Source: Gemmatimonadota bacterium
GTDB taxonomy: Bacteria; Gemmatimonadota; Gemmatimonadetes; Gemmatimonadales; GWC2-71-9
Length of the DNA: 64,000 nucleotides
Assembly: GCA_020351775.1 (NCBI GenBank)
Contig: CP070666.1
Span: 5,274,650 to 5,338,649, forward strand
Reading direction: 5' to 3'
Shown: piece by piece, positions 57,928 to 64,000 of the stretch
Layout: each line of letters opens with the position of its first letter
How positions within the stretch are numbered: the first letter of the stretch is position 1
Notes under the pieces: generated by a model
Told to the model about the DNA's origin: nothing
Databases searched by the model: none
The model's input: only the letters and a program-made list of their open reading frames with translations
Made by a program: the position numbers and the translations under genes

Positions 57928-58413
57928 ATGAGTGTGCGCGTCGCGGTGCTGACCGTGTCCGACAGAGGTGAGGCTGGACGGCGGAGAGACACATCGGGCG
58001 ATGCGCTTGCCGACTGGGTTGAACGGCAAGGCTACCAACTGTCGGGCAGGGAGATCGTTCCCGACGAAACGGATCTCATCGCCGCAGTGCTGGTGCGCTG
58101 GGCGGATGATCGTGTCGCTGACCTAATCATCACGACCGGTGGTACAGGTCTCGGACCGCGAGATGTCACACCCGAGGCGACTCGCGCAGTACTGGAGCGG
58201 GAAGCACCCGGGATTGCGGAGGCGCTCCGCGCTGATGGGCGCGACAACACACCCTACAGTGTGTTGTCGCGGGGGACGGCAGGAATCCGGGGTGCGACGC
58301 TGATAGTGAACCTCCCGGGCGGTACGAGTGGTGTGAGGGACGGGATCATAACACTCTCTCCGATCGTCGAACATGCTGCACGACTGTTGCGAGGGGAGCT
58401 GACTGAGCACTGA
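57928..58413 (+). CDS. mog: Molybdopterin adenylyltransferase, Mog/MoaB type
   Basis: A 161-residue MogA/MoaB-fold protein that adenylates molybdopterin for molybdenum or tungsten insertion. It shows TVSDRG, the ITTGGTGLGPRDVTPEA pterin-binding segment and NLPGG. ATG 57928 has GGAGGT four bases upstream; the open frame from 57850 lies in gcvT. Mog or MoaB cannot be separated by eye. Confidence 0.88.
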   Translation: MSVRVAVLTVSDRGEAGRRRDTSGDALADWVERQGYQLSGREIVPDETDLIAAVLVRWADDRVADLIITTGGTGLGPRDVTPEATRAVLEREAPGIAEALRADGRDNTPYSVLSRGTAGIRGATLIVNLPGGTSGVRDGIITLSPIVEHAARLLRGELTEH

Positions 58414-59945
58414 TGACTGGCAGGATTCTCATAACCATGGATGACCTTGAGGCTGCGGTCCGGTCGAATGCGCAGCTCGAGAACGCTGGATTCCGCACGG
58501 TCATAATCTCGTCGCAAGACGATTCGGCAAAGCTACTACGGAGTGAAGAACCCGACCTAGTGTTGCTTACCGGCGCCCTACAGGAGAGCCCCGCCACAAC
58601 ATTGCTGCGGCTCGCACGTGACCGTTCCATCTCGACCTTGGGCCTGGTCGAGCCGACTGCACCTGATTCCGCGGAGCTGGCTCGACGGATTGGCCTCACC
58701 GCATGGTTGCGCAAGCCAGCTGATCCTGCTGAAGTTGCCGCCACTGTCAGCCAGCTGGTCGAGCGGCGCCGACTACAAACTCACACGGGAATCCTCGGTG
58801 AGAGCCCAGCCATCCAAGAAGTGCTGGTGAAGATAGAGCAGATGGCGCCGGTATCCTCCACCGTACTCGTCGAGGGCGAGTCAGGCACGGGCAAAGAGCT
58901 GGTTGCTCATGCCATTCACGAATTGTCGCCGCGGCGTGATCACCCGTTCATAGCCGTCAACTGTTCAGCCCTACCCGAAACACTGCTCGAATCGGAGCTG
59001 TTCGGGCACGAGAAGGGATCGTTCACCGGTGCGGCGGAGAGACGCTTGGGACGGTTCGAGTTGGCCCACCGGGGAACGTTGTTCTTGGACGAAGTCGGCG
59101 AGATGCCGCTGACAACACAGGTCAAGCTGCTCCGTGTGCTAGAGAGCCGTGCGTTCTTTCGGGTGGGTGGCTCAGAGTCGATTCGGACCGACGTGAGGGT
59201 CATCGCCGCAACGAACCGGTCGCTCAAAGAGCAGGTGTCCTTGGGAGAATTCCGCGACGATCTCTTCTACCGGCTCAACGTGCTCTACGTATACCTGCCG
59301 CCTCTGCGAGAACGGAAGGGCGACATACCGATATTGATCAGGCACTTCGTCACAGAGCTGAGTGAGACGCACGCGCGGCCGTTCCCAGGCATCAGCCCCG
59401 GAGCAATGGAGATTCTGGTGAACGCCGACTGGCCCGGGAACGTGCGCCAACTCAGGAACTTGATCGATTCGATGTTCGTGTTGGCGCCGGACCGTGAGGT
59501 GCGGGGTAGCGATATTCCGGCCGACATCCGCGAGGGTGGAACCAGACTGCTGCCGATGCGGGTGCCGCAGCAGAGGCGTGAAGTTCAGGGCAAAGAACTG
59601 GAATTCATCTTTCGCAGCCTGGTTGAGTTGAAGCTTCAGGTCGAGGACCTACGTCGCCGCGTGGAGGAGGCGCCTGCGCGGGTGGGCGTGATCGATGTGG
59701 GTCGGGCGCAGCCCGCGGAGTATGAAGAGATCCATGCGGTGGTACCGGAGCCGGAGCTCGAATCGTTGCAGGTGAAGGAGGAGGAGGTGGTGTACAAAGC
59801 CGGTATGACGATGGCCGATGTGGAACGTGCCGCCATCGAGGCTGCTTTGCGTGAGACCGAAGGTAACCGCCGCCAAGCCGCTGAGAGGCTGGGCATCGGT
59901 GAGCGAACGCTGTACCGGAAATTGAAGGACTACCAGATGGGCTGA
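58413..59945 (+). CDS. NtrC-family sigma-54 activator with degenerate receiver
   Basis: A 510-residue protein. The receiver-like domain (1-115) lacks the phosphoacceptor: the aligned position is T53 (DLVLLTGAL) instead of Asp, although acidic D10/D11 and K101 remain. The AAA+ domain has Walker A GESGTGKE, the contact loop GSFTGA and FLDEVGEM; a variable coiled linker (about 380-450) precedes a Fis HTH ([19 protein letters not shown]). ATG 58413 shares one base with the previous stop. It has no adjacent histidine kinase and is probably controlled by something other than phosphorylation. Confidence 0.88.
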
Positions 59946-60627
59946 GGCAACGTGCCGGTGCCGGCCACCGGTACACCCAAATGAGCCGGCACTACATCTC
60001 CTGCGCTCGCGGTAACGCAGACTCTTCTGTTCATCACACCGGATTCGCCTGCGCGCCGTGCCTCGATGATCCAGGTCATTCTGTTCTGGAGTTCCGTGCC
60101 CACGAGCACGATCTGCATCTCAGGCCAGAGGCTTGGCCTGCCTGTAGTTGATGACGCCGCCCGTCAGCGTTGCCGGGTTCCTGCGCGGGTTCGCAGATAG
60201 TGAGTGAGTAGTCAGCAAGCGGGGTCGGTCGGCGTCAACCGCCTCATGGTTCCTATCTGACTGTCCAGGGTGACCGAGGCTGAGGCCGCCTGTTGGTCAT
60301 TCGTTTGGTTCATCACCTCGCTGTTGATTTCCGGGGCCTCGGCTTAGTTGCGCACCAGGGACGACAAACGCAAGGGCCGAGAGGAGTGAATGCCCTCCAC
60401 GGTGCCATACCGCTACGCGAAGAGGTTGACGGATGTGCCGTCTCGGCGGATTGAGCTGCTCGTGGCACTGTTCGTGCTACACAAGGTCGATGGGAGTTCG
60501 CGCGTTGTTGCCGCGCCACTTTCTCAGTTTCGGTAAGCCTAAATCAGGTAACTCGACGCCCTGCAGTAGCTTGTCAAAAGGGTGATCTAAGTCACTGATT
60601 TTCAGTGCGTTGAGGAGCCTTATGCTA
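59946..60627 (+). other. Gene-poor stretch before the hydrogenase-GGDEF gene
   Basis: No tRNA or homologous gene was recognised. It begins with a strong hairpin (stem CCGGTG / CACCGG at 59955-59971, no U-tract) that may end transcription of the NtrC-type gene. A weak partial palindrome pairs the GAGGCTGAGGCC and GGCCTCGGC regions around 60270-60345. A six-base palindrome CACTGA-ttt-TCAGTG (60593-60607) sits just before the -35 of the next promoter and could be an operator. Confidence 0.4.
60390..60536 (+). CDS. Possible small ORF (48 aa)
   Basis: ATG 60390 follows GAGGAG by three bases and opens 48 codons starting MPSTVPYRYAKRLTDVPSR. No recognised domain, no membrane helix of normal length, and arginine-rich composition. 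It may be chance. Confidence 0.2.
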   Translation: MPSTVPYRYAKRLTDVPSRRIELLVALFVLHKVDGSSRVVAAPLSQFR

Positions 60628-60657
60628 TTGACAGTGACATATTTCCCGAGCTATAGT
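60628..60657 (+). promoter_or_regulatory. Strong sigma-70-type promoter of the hydrogenase-GGDEF operon
   Basis: Perfect TTGACA (60628-60633), 18 bases, TATAGT (60652-60657). The leader is about 65 bases and contains hairpins GGGTC-cgtttt-GACCC (60660-60675) and CCAGGT-tgctct-ACCTGG (60697-60714). Confidence 0.7.
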
Positions 60658-60729
60658 AGGGGTCCGTTTTGACCCTTAGGGAACTCGGGAGGCAGTCCAG
60701 GTTGCTCTACCTGGCCGGGCACAGATTCA

Positions 60730-62463
60730 TTGCGGTTCGAGATTGATCCCGACAAGTGCGTGAGCTGCCTGGCCTGCGTGAGAGTATGCGCGGCCAGAGC
60801 CATCTCCGTGGGCGATGACTCGGTCCGAATAGAGGACGAAGTCTGTATCAGATCTGGGTCGTGCCTTCCGGAGTGCCCGCACGATGCGATAAAGGCTGTA
60901 GGAGACCTGGCGCGTGCTGAGGAACTTGCCAGGAGTGGCGCGGCGGTCCTCGTTCTGGCTGTGGAGGCGGCCGCCCACTTTTATCCTCACACGCCCGAAC
61001 AGGTGGTGAATGCGTGCTACGGAGCTGGTTTCCGGGCGGTTCACCACGGAGTGTTGGGTGACGAGCTGGTAGCCGAGGAGTATCGTAAGCTCCTGGGCGA
61101 TCCCAACTGGGGCACCATGGTGCGTTCGACATGTCCGGTAGTTGTCGCTCGGATTCAGCTGGACTACCCCGAGTTGGTGCCGTTTCTGGCACCTGTGCAG
61201 ACGCCGCTGGCAGCGGAGGCTGGTTACCACCGGGCACTATATGGCGACAATGTCGGGTTGGTGTATGCTGGCGTGTGCCTGGCAGATAGCACGCCCCATG
61301 TAGATGCGGTCTTGACGCTGTCCGAGTTGGGGCAGCTGCTGCAGCGGCGGGGTGTCAGGTTGGGCGACCAGCCGCAGCACTACGAGCGAATTCCGGAGGT
61401 GAGGCAGCGGTTTCTCAGCACTGCGGGCGGTCTGCCGTTCCCGGTGTTGCAAGAGGAGCATCAAGCCAGTCGCCGGTTTCGTAAGGTGCGGGGGCTTGAC
61501 GCGCTGGCGGTGGTGGCCCACGCGGTGGCGATTGAGCGAATAGAGCTGGGTTTCGTTGACATCCTGCCGTGTGATGGATGTTTAGACCATCCCCTGATGG
61601 GGCCGAGGGAGGAGCTGTTTTGGCGTCGCAGGGTGGTGAGCGAGACGGAGCCGCCGCGATCGCACGCTCCTGTGGTCGACCCGGGGATTCGGGTGCGGCT
61701 GGATCGAGCCTTCGACTTCTATCACAACGGTCGCAAGCCGCCGCAGATAGAGATTGATCGGGTAATCGAGACCGTAGGCCGCGCTCCTGGGGGTGCCCCG
61801 TGGGACTGTGGTGCATGTGGCTACGACACTTGTGCGGGGTTTGCGGTGGCGATGCTGGAAGGCCGGTCGACGCTGAGGCAATGTCCGCCGTATCAGGAGC
61901 GGAGGGCGGAAGACGCGATTAGGGTAGCGGCGGTCGACGAACTCACTGGCCTCGCGACGTTCCGGATGCTGCGCGCGCGGTTGGAGCAGGAGGTGGCCCG
62001 CAGCGACCGTAGTGGAGAACCGTTCGGCGTGTTGTTCGTCGATATGGACGATTTCAAGAAGCTCAACGACGCCTACGGCCATGAAGCGGGGAATCGGGTG
62101 CTCGAGGGAGTGGGTCGGGAGCTGGAGTTCAGCGTGCGTAAGACAGATCTCGCAGCTCGCTATGGCGGTGACGAATTCGTGTTGGTGCTGGTGCGGACCG
62201 ACTTGGAGGGGGCGGTGAGGGTGGGTGAGATGGTACGCGAGGGAGTGGAGTCATTTGGGCGGGCACAGGGATTCGGGGCGGGTGAGGTATCGGTATCGGT
62301 GGGTGTGGCGTGTCACGATCCCAGAGCAGTAGAGGTGGTTGATGTATTGCGGGAGGCGGACCGGGCGCTGTACATGGCAAAGGAGCGGGGTGGCAATCAG
62401 GTGGCGGCACGGGAACGAGGGGCAGAGCGGAAATCAACCGACACAGTCAGGGAGCAAGCTTGA
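60730..62463 (+). CDS. Ferredoxin / [FeFe]-hydrogenase-like / Fe-S / GGDEF fusion
   Basis: A 577-residue protein in four parts. (1) Ferredoxin: C10-x2-C13-x2-C16-x3-C20, and a second motif with only three cysteines (C39, C45, C49; S42 at the missing place). (2) A [FeFe]-hydrogenase large-subunit-like domain (about 60-300) with C135 (RSTCP), C183 (GVCLAD), C281 and C284 (LPCDGC) at the H-cluster cysteine sites; the proton-relay cysteine and the conserved lysine are replaced by T134 and D186. (3) An Fe-S domain, C360-x2-C363-x4-C368-x16-C385. (4) A GGDEF domain with intact YGGDEF (478-483) and inhibitory site R470-x2-D473. It should make c-di-GMP under redox or H2 control. TTG 60730 is the only start in the frame. 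Confidence 0.85.
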   Translation: MRFEIDPDKCVSCLACVRVCAARAISVGDDSVRIEDEVCIRSGSCLPECPHDAIKAVGDLARAEELARSGAAVLVLAVEAAAHFYPHTPEQVVNACYGAGFRAVHHGVLGDELVAEEYRKLLGDPNWGTMVRSTCPVVVARIQLDYPELVPFLAPVQTPLAAEAGYHRALYGDNVGLVYAGVCLADSTPHVDAVLTLSELGQLLQRRGVRLGDQPQHYERIPEVRQRFLSTAGGLPFPVLQEEHQASRRFRKVRGLDALAVVAHAVAIERIELGFVDILPCDGCLDHPLMGPREELFWRRRVVSETEPPRSHAPVVDPGIRVRLDRAFDFYHNGRKPPQIEIDRVIETVGRAPGGAPWDCGACGYDTCAGFAVAMLEGRSTLRQCPPYQERRAEDAIRVAAVDELTGLATFRMLRARLEQEVARSDRSGEPFGVLFVDMDDFKKLNDAYGHEAGNRVLEGVGRELEFSVRKTDLAARYGGDEFVLVLVRTDLEGAVRVGEMVREGVESFGRAQGFGAGEVSVSVGVACHDPRAVEVVDVLREADRALYMAKERGGNQVAARERGAERKSTDTVREQA

Positions 62464-63203
62464 TCCAGAGCGGTCCAGAACCCGACCCGGAGCAGATCAC
62501 TAAGACGCAACCGGGTAAAGGCGAAGACGGCGACCGAGTACCCGACCCGTGGGGCGTGAAGCGGGCGGAGAACCTGCTGCAGAGCCTGCAGGCGGTCCTG
62601 TCGGCGCGGGTTGTTGTTTCGCCAGTCGGCGAGATCCAGGAGGTCCACGTGCTTGCCAGTAGCGGTGTGTCGCCCAAGCAAGTGGTGCGCAACGTGGAGA
62701 GCGCGTTGCTGGCCCATCTCGGGATCAAGGTAGACCATAGGAAGATCAGCGTGGCGCAGACGGCGGAAGTGGAGCCAATTGAGGCGCTGGAGCAGTCGGC
62801 GGTCAAGCAGGAGGCGCAGCGGCGCGGTGTTGTGTACCAGTCACTCGAATTGGTGGCGGCTGCTCCGCACCGGGTTCGCTTTGCGGTTACGCTGGATGTC
62901 GACGGTCAGGAGGTTGTCGGGCAGGATGAGGCAGCCGAGACCAGTCGGGCGCGGTTGCAGGCGGCCGCGCGGGCAGCGGTCGCAGCGTTGGACAAGGCTC
63001 TGCCTCGTGGGACGTTCCAGCTCGAGGGCGTCAAGATAATCGAGGCGTTTGACGAGGAGTTGGTTGTCGCCGGTGTGCACGTCGTGGACGGGCGCGAGAC
63101 TCGGTTGCTGACGGGAACTGCGGAGGTGAGAGAAGCACCCGAGCAAGCCGCGGTATTGGCCGTGCTGGATGCGACCAACCGGTGGTTCCAGACGCACAGG
63201 TGA
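62460..63203 (+). CDS. Uncharacterised protein coupled to the hydrogenase-GGDEF gene
   Basis: A 247-residue protein of unknown function without signal peptide or membrane helix. Two alpha/beta modules can be seen: about 36-100 (ARVVVSPVGEIQEVHVLAS, then QVVRNVESALLAHLGI and VDHRKISVAQ) and about 120-245 (a strand-helix unit with RLQAAARAAVAALDKAL and LAVLDATNRWF). TTG 62460 overlaps the GGDEF stop by four bases, so the two products are made together. An accessory or ligand-binding role in the same signalling unit is inference. Confidence 0.7.
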   Translation: MIQSGPEPDPEQITKTQPGKGEDGDRVPDPWGVKRAENLLQSLQAVLSARVVVSPVGEIQEVHVLASSGVSPKQVVRNVESALLAHLGIKVDHRKISVAQTAEVEPIEALEQSAVKQEAQRRGVVYQSLELVAAAPHRVRFAVTLDVDGQEVVGQDEAAETSRARLQAAARAAVAALDKALPRGTFQLEGVKIIEAFDEELVVAGVHVVDGRETRLLTGTAEVREAPEQAAVLAVLDATNRWFQTHR

Positions 63204-63228
63204 GGCTGCGACAGAGCTAAGGCAGAGG

Positions 63229-63423
63229 CAGTAGTGACGGACGAGTGAATCGAGCGATGGCGTCAAGCCATCTGCCTTTGGAATAGAGACGAACAAGCGA
63301 AAAGGGGGTGCCCCGGAAGAAAGTCTAGCCAGCTCATAGCGAAGCGGATCGGTGATAAACTGAGCGGAGCCTCGAACATACCGTAGCGGGGTATGTCACT
63401 TTCCGAGCGGCTGACGCCGCCTG
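63229..63423 (+). ncRNA. Hairpin-rich untranslated leader, possible structured RNA
   Basis: Between two coupled-looking genes lie several pairings: AAGGCAG / CTGCCTT enclosing GATGGC-gtcaa-GCCATC (about 63229-63278); GCTCA / TGAGC (63332-63365); CATACC-gtagcgg-GGTATG (about 63377-63395); and GCGGC-tgac-GCCGC (63407-63420). AAAGGGGGTG occurs at 63301-63310 and again at 63424-63433 as the ribosome binding site of the next ORF. No known riboswitch could be matched. Calling it a functional RNA is tentative. Confidence 0.35.
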
Positions 63424-63440
63424 AAAGGGGGTGACGCGAC

Positions 63441-63509
63441 ATGATCACATTGATCCTCGACGCCTTGTGCGCCTTGTGCGCACTTGCCTCATGGCAGAAT
63501 TGGGGCTAG
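63441..63509 (+). CDS. 22-residue peptide with CxxC motif
   Basis: ATG 63441 is preceded by AAAGGGGGTGA, a near-ideal ribosome binding site, at suitable spacing. The peptide is hydrophobic with C10-A-L-C13, a tandem ALC repeat encoded by two identical nine-base units, then WQNW and a stop at 63507-63509. It is too short to identify by similarity. Its place between the signalling genes and the membrane gene suggests a leader peptide or small membrane partner. Confidence 0.5.
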   Translation: MITLILDALCALCALASWQNWG

Positions 63510-63554
63510 ACGTTCGGCCGGGGTATCCTCCCCTGATTGAGAGCGCTGCGACGA

Positions 63555-64000
63555 ATGGCGATTTCAAGTAGTCGGGCGAACGCTGTCAACAGCTACGTGG
63601 CTCTGGTTGCCCTCTTGGGCGCAGCGTCGCTTGTACTGTCAGCCACCTTCGACCCCCTGGCGCGTTTTAATGACGCTGAGTCAGTCTTCGGTGTCCTCGC
63701 GTTCGTTCTTCTCGCCCTTGGTCTCCAGCTAGCCGAGTACCGACTGGCGGTTGGCACTTCACATGGTGCCATTGCCTTCATCGTTTACATGGCTGCTGCG
63801 CTACTGTTTGGCCCGACCTGGTGCGCGATTATCACCGGCGTTACGGTAGTGTCAGCTCAAGCGTTGAATCGGAAGGCTCCGCTCAAGATCGTATTCAACG
63901 TCTCGCAGCATGTCACTGCCCTGATTGCTGGAACGTGTGTATATGTGTTAATGGGCGGACCGATCCCGCCTGATTCACTGGGTATTGCCTTGGTGCCGTT
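63555..64000 (+). CDS. Multi-pass membrane protein, N-terminal part (runs off the window)
   Basis: The first 148 residues are visible, open to the window edge, with four to five hydrophobic segments (about 13-29, 40-58, 68-86, 87-102 and 116-135). The motif FNVSQHVTALIAG is the kind seen in N-terminal membrane regions of HD-GYP phosphodiesterases and related signalling proteins. If an HD-GYP or GGDEF domain follows, the operon would both make and break c-di-GMP; the visible part cannot prove this. Confidence 0.6.
   Translation, partial: MAISSSRANAVNSYVALVALLGAASLVLSATFDPLARFNDAESVFGVLAFVLLALGLQLAEYRLAVGTSHGAIAFIVYMAAALLFGPTWCAIITGVTVVSAQALNRKAPLKIVFNVSQHVTALIAGTCVYVLMGGPIPPDSLGIALVP

Follow-up and report, generated by a model that had tools for sequence, protein, structure and literature searches.

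A hydrogenase-like diguanylate cyclase and a micropeptide-bearing RNA leader at a putative cyclic di-GMP locus of Gemmatimonadota

A gene encoding a hydrogenase-like protein fused to a diguanylate cyclase raises the question of what such a protein would sense and whether the genes behind it belong to the same circuit. The gene lies in a 64,000-nucleotide (nt) stretch, here called the window (C1:5274650-5338649), of a 5.51-Mb single-scaffold Gemmatimonadota genome. It is followed by a gene for an unassigned protein (U), a structured RNA leader enclosing a micropeptide open reading frame (ORF) and the gene of a membrane-bound HD-GYP protein. The initial annotation took these five parts for one possible cassette in which hydrogen or redox state sets cyclic di-GMP (c-di-GMP). 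We lean towards reading the region as a local c-di-GMP module, in which a cyclase with iron-sulfur (Fe-S) input would be opposed by a MASE9 HD-GYP phosphodiesterase under the control of the micropeptide leader. The evidence throughout consisted of sequences, alignments and predicted structures, all comparisons were made within one phylum, Gemmatimonadota (phylum-wide sample of 395 genomes), and negative statements on the literature cover open papers. Families are labelled f1 for the source genome's own family and f2, f3 and so on for the others; family and genus labels were tool-assigned.

The fusion protein and the question of hydrogen sensing

As annotated initially, ferredoxin, [FeFe]-hydrogenase-like, CxxC-x4-C Fe-S and intact GGDEF domains were found in one polypeptide. 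The Pfam matches in this single frame were Fer4 (E 6e-7), Fe_hyd_lg_C PF02906 (53.1 bits, cut-off 22.1), FeS PF04060 (41.2 bits) and GGDEF PF00990 (140.4 bits). No other PF02906 locus was found in the 5.51-Mb genome, and GGDEF loci numbered nine with the fusion included, so the genome has further cyclases besides it. The AlphaFold model of the fusion (predicted local distance difference test, pLDDT, 78) gave GGDEF proteins as top Foldseek matches, and HydA subunits of HydABC hydrogenases were matched over ~390 columns (E 1e-11). Homologues of the sensor part (397 amino acids, aa) were present in 29 of the 37 f1 genomes of the relatives set with 48-81% identity, the exception being a fragment (L055). 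Two further families of this class, f7 and f9, had full-length fusion homologues (E about 1e-145, phylum sample), while f2 had only a distant hydrogenase-like domain without ferredoxin motifs. The f2 proteins with this domain (L060-L064) were 472-866 aa long, showed no further Pfam domain and numbered at most two per genome.

Across 27 f1 homologues, the GGDEF active site and the RxxD I-site were invariant (D438, D440, R470, D473 and GGDEF 479-483), and by these intact catalytic and I-site residues the fusion is an active-looking diguanylate cyclase. The ferredoxin cysteines were near-invariant save for position 42 (Ser in the window protein, Cys in 20 of 27), the Cx2Cx4Cx16C cysteines of PF04060 were kept in 26-27 of the 27 proteins, and the linker from C385, the last Fe-S cysteine, to the cyclase had the same length in all 27. 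Elsewhere, two f7 sequences (L110 and L111) showed most of the ferredoxin and FeS cysteines gone as well, and L111 also had no readable GGDEF, pointing to decay or repurposing. In one f9 genome (L096, G203), the fusion homologue sat in a 1247-aa open frame with U not adjacent, a possible additional domain fusion.

The H-cluster loops followed a different course. In the window protein, the motifs STCPVVV, GVCLADS and LPCDGC stood in place of the canonical TSCPxxV, GPCIAKK and CxxxC; CxxC thus replaced CxxxC and AKK was lost, so the altered H-cluster residues noted initially are real. All four H-cluster positions (135, 183, 281 and 284) were Cys, in altered context, in 14 of the 27 f1 proteins. 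The remaining 13 always had Asp at position 135, and none kept the four-cysteine set; these 13 formed one clade (support 95/99) in a fusion tree that was distorted by a badly trimmed row (XL096) and a far outgroup and was used solely for this clade. All four cysteines were lost in every f7 and f9 protein. Furthermore, neither HydG nor HydF was above the curated cut-off in any of 61 genomes of the order (0/61 each; HydE was not searched), and Thermotoga maritima, the positive control, scored above cut-off. No HydG above cut-off was found in the 17 f7 and f9 genomes. Among 21 further genomes tested, HydG was positive in G061 only, a genome of another class, where it shared a contig with a related protein of 669 aa that bears canonical TTCP/GPCIAKK motifs. 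Two such 669-aa proteins of f11 in that other class (L112 in G066 and L113 in G061) had intact sensory-hydrogenase motifs, with HydG on the same contig and radical S-adenosylmethionine matches nearby. With these features, these kin of the fusion's sensor part are plausible true hydrogen sensors in Gemmatimonadota.

Overall, the fusion is plausibly better read as a redox- or Fe-S-sensing diguanylate cyclase derived from a sensory hydrogenase. Since a diiron H-cluster would no longer be assembled, the most likely input is redox state, oxygen or Fe-S status, and not hydrogen. Such a cyclase would be expected from the loss of the cubane ligands while the other clusters, the GGDEF and I-site residues and the linker length were kept. 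In this arrangement, the two N-terminal and one C-terminal [4Fe-4S] clusters of the former sensory [FeFe]-hydrogenase would act through the fixed-length linker on GGDEF and set the cyclase output, with input signal and coupling suggested by the domains and the cysteine pattern. Two points weigh against this. The 14 f1 proteins that keep the four H-cluster cysteines, the window protein included, could hold a functional cubane. In addition, the C-terminal cluster of the group D hydrogenase TamHydS is not reduced by hydrogen and may be structural (PMC13104023), so that the fusion's C-terminal cluster need not be the signal.

A different reading of the same clusters is that the fusion responds to their apo or holo state, and hence to iron or Fe-S supply rather than redox, or that they form a structural scaffold of a constitutive cyclase. 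It agrees with the retention of cluster cysteines where there is no longer an active site for them to serve, and with the two f7 sequences that lost most of them too, but the near-invariant cysteines and fixed linker length in f1 argue against a mere scaffold, and this reading is considered doubtful. That the fusion is a genuine hydrogen sensor, a group C-type sensory hydrogenase setting c-di-GMP when its H-cluster binds hydrogen, is highly improbable: it would agree with the hydrogenase fold found by Foldseek, with the order of ferredoxin, H-domain and C-terminal FeS shared with groups C and D (PMC13104023) and with the four cysteines of the window protein, but HydG and HydF were not above cut-off in the 61 genomes, the loops are altered and their cubane cysteines, lost in half of f1 and all of f7 and f9, are evolutionarily dispensable, and no full-length [NiFe]-hydrogenase was found in the source genome, where PF00374 matched three short, incomplete pieces, none scoring over 55 bits. 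The hydrogen sensing proposed initially was therefore rejected on the maturase and cysteine evidence.

The RNA leader and its micropeptide

The region between U and the HD-GYP gene contains an RNA structure that is widely conserved in Gemmatimonadota and apparently undescribed. The element was present in all 39 U-HD-GYP intergenic regions read, from five families (f1, f2, f5, f7 and f9), and in two genomes where U and HD-GYP are separated (G225 and G288) it remained with HD-GYP. From 5' to 3', it comprised the 5' strand of a closing helix (P1), two to five AGCGRA-type motifs, a hairpin (H2) whose loop is often UAGCG, a second hairpin that masks an extended Shine-Dalgarno sequence (ideal form GAAAGGAGGTGA), an ORF 14-35 codons long, the P1 3' strand and the HD-GYP start. 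A covariance model built on 18 leader sequences (17 from f1, one from f9) recovered the expected sites in f3, f5, f7, f2 and f10, none of which was in the training set, down to E 1e-13 and nearly always once per genome. The f2 scores were weak (E about 1e-4 to 1e-2), and identification there rests on syntenic position.

Pairing statistics agreed with the model. In a MAFFT alignment not fitted to the model (A5), 87% of cells paired vs 32-53% in slid controls, and 32 two-sided changes were counted vs 11.7 in shuffles. The wider alignment A6, which is model-fitted and therefore leans to the model and contains a few false matches, gave 132 two-sided changes vs 37 in shuffled and at most 42 in slid controls. 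P1 was never part of the covariance model; it beat shuffled partners at p ≤ 0.05 in 32 of the 39 loci, the helices of all 39 differed in sequence, and its 3' strand started 0-23 nt past the micropeptide stop, ahead of the HD-GYP start, in 38. A cross-partner duplex test of P1 discriminated weakly, since C-runs and G-runs are common to all copies, and shuffles were used in its place. RNAalifold on whole unguided alignments gave a poor consensus; the helices were then defined manually and checked by counting pairs and with the covariance model. A broader leader-core alignment (A7) had its families out of register and was set aside. The structured leader of the initial annotation thus stood by comparison, through covariation and the covariance model; the single-sequence folding energy of the window copy was unremarkable (z -1.8), so that the evidence for the leader is comparative. 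No match at E ≤ 1 was found among 4227 Rfam families, c-di-GMP riboswitches included, for the window region and 20 representatives, and identity with a known riboswitch was rejected on this basis.

The ORF within the leader had 22 codons in the window, with a CxxC motif, behind an extended Shine-Dalgarno sequence. From 66 loci, 55 distinct peptides were collected, with lengths of 14-35 aa (median 23 aa), a mean hydropathy of +1.16 and Trp as last or penultimate residue in 46. The pN/pS (non-synonymous relative to synonymous differences) was 0.42 in genus g27, and eight synonymous vs two non-synonymous differences were counted in genus g16. Start, stop, Shine-Dalgarno and a coding-type substitution pattern were conserved, at a fixed place before one gene. 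The Shine-Dalgarno of the micropeptide was near-perfect (median -12.6) vs a poor one for HD-GYP (median -3.8 kcal/mol), with the HD-GYP start codons assigned mechanically for this comparison. At several f5 and f2 loci, the best HD-GYP Shine-Dalgarno fell in the 3' strand of P1. The CxxC to which the initial annotation gave weight does occur in the window ORF; it is private to the source genome, one of the 55 peptides, and the micropeptide as a redox part was rejected.

We tentatively propose, as quite possible, that these leaders are a class of cis-regulatory RNA not described before, in which a closing helix surrounds a conserved, hydrophobic leader peptide ending in Trp and translation of MASE9-HD-GYP is gated, and that in three families an Fe-S cyclase without H-cluster shares the locus, which would bring both halves of c-di-GMP turnover together with separate redox and translational inputs. 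The structure would hold the strong Shine-Dalgarno of the micropeptide, and passage of a ribosome over the micropeptide ORF would open P1 and thereby allow translation of HD-GYP or readthrough, the regulatory step and its direction being inferred. The trigger may be a ligand, insertion of the peptide into the membrane or a stall at its terminal Trp. The phosphodiesterase, encoded two genes downstream of the fusion, would oppose the cyclase, and together they would set local c-di-GMP. Several observations speak against such gating: pairing of the long-range helix is poor in the window copy (GAGCCUC with GACGCGA), the helix masking the Shine-Dalgarno is paired in just 69% of cells, the HD-GYP Shine-Dalgarno is not visibly within P1 at several f1 loci, one locus (L133) lacks a clear micropeptide Shine-Dalgarno and P1, and the comparison of Shine-Dalgarno strengths depends on the mechanical start assignment.

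The AGCGRA repeats and the UAGCG loop are conserved beyond what a simple attenuator needs, and the leader sits ahead of a c-di-GMP phosphodiesterase gene. Both features would suit a small-molecule riboswitch, possibly for c-di-GMP, with an incidental or secondary micropeptide; such a riboswitch is unlikely given the Rfam result in the 20 representatives and the conserved coding signature and Shine-Dalgarno of the ORF. Alternatively, the micropeptide itself may be the functional product, as a single-pass membrane peptide binding the MASE9 sensor domain or a type I toxin-like peptide, with the RNA merely limiting its synthesis. Its hydrophobicity, its length and the conserved Trp near the C terminus fit this, the adjoining gene encodes a membrane sensor, and the masked Shine-Dalgarno recalls type I toxin mRNAs, which are controlled in this way. 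However, the peptide is nearly always single-copy and keeps one position throughout entire families, lacking the mobility that toxins typically show, and P1 surrounds the ORF and reaches right up to the following start codon, which points to control of the HD-GYP gene; a functional peptide is accordingly considered improbable.

Gene neighbourhood and protein U

A conserved neighbourhood, the lack of which was named initially as grounds for abandoning the cassette, was found in f1, f7 and f9. The f1 order was a MoaB-like gene, a sigma-54 regulator, the fusion, U, MASE9-HD-GYP and an opposed TPR gene, and U came after the fusion in 14 of the 16 f7 and f9 loci with sufficient contig. The regulator was the conserved upstream neighbour in f1, f2 and f3. 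In f2, f3 and one f1 genome (G023), it was followed by U with the fusion missing between, and in f5 U and HD-GYP were still together. Families that lack the fusion still have U, the leader with its micropeptide and HD-GYP side by side, so these make up an older and wider core to which the fusion is an addition; as judged from gene order, the fusion was inserted or lost between the regulator and U. The five parts are consequently not a single indivisible cassette as first described. A TTGACA-type -35 box recurred ~60-100 nt upstream of the fusion in most relatives. A sigma-54 promoter was looked for ahead of the fusion and none was found, sigma-70-like boxes being present instead, so that co-transcription with the sigma-54 regulator is not required. 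At three loci from one part of f1 (L038, L043 and L045), the gap between U and HD-GYP was ~1 kb vs the usual ~0.3 kb, and an additional ORF seems to lie between U and the leader.

The membrane protein annotated downstream was confirmed by its MASE9-like segment, and the HD-GYP expected beyond position 64000 does follow in relatives. Among the relatives' homologues, MASE9 was above the Pfam cut-off in six of ten and HD_5/HD-GYP was strong in all. In the source genome, the gene breaks off at exactly 100 N in a scaffold gap beyond the window (L002:5950-6049 = C1:5338949-5339048). The DNA past the gap codes for another gene, an NtrC-type regulator, and the 747-aa ORF spanning it (L002:5187-7430) is therefore an assembly artefact. 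The coordinates of all features in the window are given in Table 1.

Table 1. Features of the locus in window coordinates.
Feature	Position	Strand	Support
Sigma-54 activator-type regulator (Sigma54_activat and Fis HTH_8)	58413..59945	+	Pfam 238 bits and synteny
Sigma-70-like promoter TTGACA-18-TATAGT, ahead of fusion	60628..60657	+	
Hydrogenase-like / Fe-S / GGDEF fusion, 577 aa, TTG start	60730..62463	+	
Two [4Fe-4S] ferredoxin motifs (C10, C13, C16, C20; C39, C45, C49, with S42 in window copy)	60739..60891	+	
[FeFe]-hydrogenase-like domain, degenerate H-cluster loops (C135, C183, C281, C284)	60985..61584	+	
PF04060 FeS domain, C360-x2-C363-x4-C368-x16-C385	61804..61890	+	
GGDEF diguanylate cyclase domain, GGDEF and RxxD intact	61927..62400	+	
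Protein U (247 aa), no family match	62460..63203	+	Predicted structure, homologues
Structured RNA leader enclosing micropeptide ORF	63298..63535	+	Covariance-model match 63298-63443, 107 bits
P1 5' strand GGGGGTGCCCCGG	63304..63316	+	p about 0.015 vs shuffles
Hairpin H2 ACATACC-GTAGCGG-GGTATGT	63376..63396	+	Two-sided changes at all seven pairs (wide alignment)
CTTTC...GAAAG hairpin, masking the micropeptide's extended Shine-Dalgarno GAAAGGGGGTG	63399..63433	+	Helix 4, 69% paired, weaker support
Micropeptide MITLILDALCALCALASWQNWG	63441..63509	+	
P1 3' strand CCGGGGTATCCTC, starting 8 nt past micropeptide stop	63518..63530	+	
MASE9-like membrane part of HD-GYP protein; start ATG 63555 or TTG 63537	63555..64000	+	

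Protein U was described initially as an unassigned protein coupled to the fusion, and its ORF does overlap the 3' end of the fusion by 4 nt (TTGA). No Pfam or NCBIfam family was above cut-off, a sequence search against PDB and Pfam returned nothing, and LeuA_dimer had no match in 25 U members. Homologues were found in 289 of the 395 phylum genomes, where the weakest matches (near 1e-10) may be another paralogue. The predicted model (pLDDT 89) consisted of an N-terminal alpha/beta part and two beta-beta-beta-alpha repeats. Its best PDB fold matches were the regulatory domains of LeuA and citramalate synthase (E 3e-6 to 8e-4); weaker ones included PUR and double-stranded-RNA-binding domains, from which binding of U to the neighbouring RNA is a possible idea. 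On the predicted fold, U may be a small-molecule-binding or adaptor partner on the HD-GYP side, a role in the module that we infer weakly.

Comparison with known systems

The locus suggests that a hydrogenase fold can be retained for signalling after its hydrogen chemistry is lost. Within a single bacterial family, the cofactor site exists naturally in two forms, with four cysteines or with none, which is a ready-made experiment on the accessory clusters of sensory hydrogenases, a question raised by the TamHydS work. It also adds an apparently undescribed, widely conserved micropeptide-bearing RNA leader before a c-di-GMP enzyme in a little-studied phylum.

Sensory [FeFe]-hydrogenases that share this cluster layout have been described (PMC13104023, PMC8924675). 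Those of group C (TmHydS) and of group D (TamHydS) have two N-terminal [4Fe-4S] clusters, the H-domain and a C-terminal [4Fe-4S] cluster in the same order as the fusion (PMC13104023), whereas the output of the fusion is GGDEF directly and not PAS. By sequence, the fusion would work like a signalling relative of these hydrogenases but departs from them on two counts, the degenerate or lost H-cluster motifs and the maturases HydG and HydF, not above cut-off. Among the regulatory classes of HydDB, hydrogenase-derived proteins are likewise linked to signalling outputs: [FeFe] classes C1, C2 and C3 are linked to a histidine kinase, chemotaxis and a phosphatase, respectively, [NiFe] class 2c is linked to a diguanylate cyclase with a proposed c-di-GMP output, and no [FeFe] class is tied to a diguanylate cyclase (PMC5037454). 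In contrast, sensor and cyclase are one polypeptide here, and nothing matching a hydrogenase-like diguanylate cyclase fusion was found in the literature.

The downstream protein of the relatives shares its MASE9 and HD_5/HD-GYP domains with MASE9-HD-GYP phosphodiesterases and differs in the structured micropeptide leader that precedes its gene. U resembles the regulatory domain of LeuA and citramalate synthase in fold, but it has no catalytic barrel, 14-18% identity, an extra N-terminal domain and no sequence-family match.

Leaders that contain an upstream ORF (uORF) and act in cis include those of the SecM/TnaC type. No description matching the present leader was found in the literature. In uORF leaders such as that of Corynebacterium ilvB-II (PMC11109978, PMC10272879), a conserved small ORF with its Shine-Dalgarno likewise lies in a structured RNA directly before the controlled gene. 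Here, by contrast, the closing helix encloses the ORF, AGCGRA motifs are repeated, the hydrophobic peptide ends in Trp, the gene codes for a c-di-GMP phosphodiesterase, and several families rather than one genus carry the element. By analogy, the leader thus resembles uORF-controlled leaders (PMC11109978) in kind, and not in sequence or structure.

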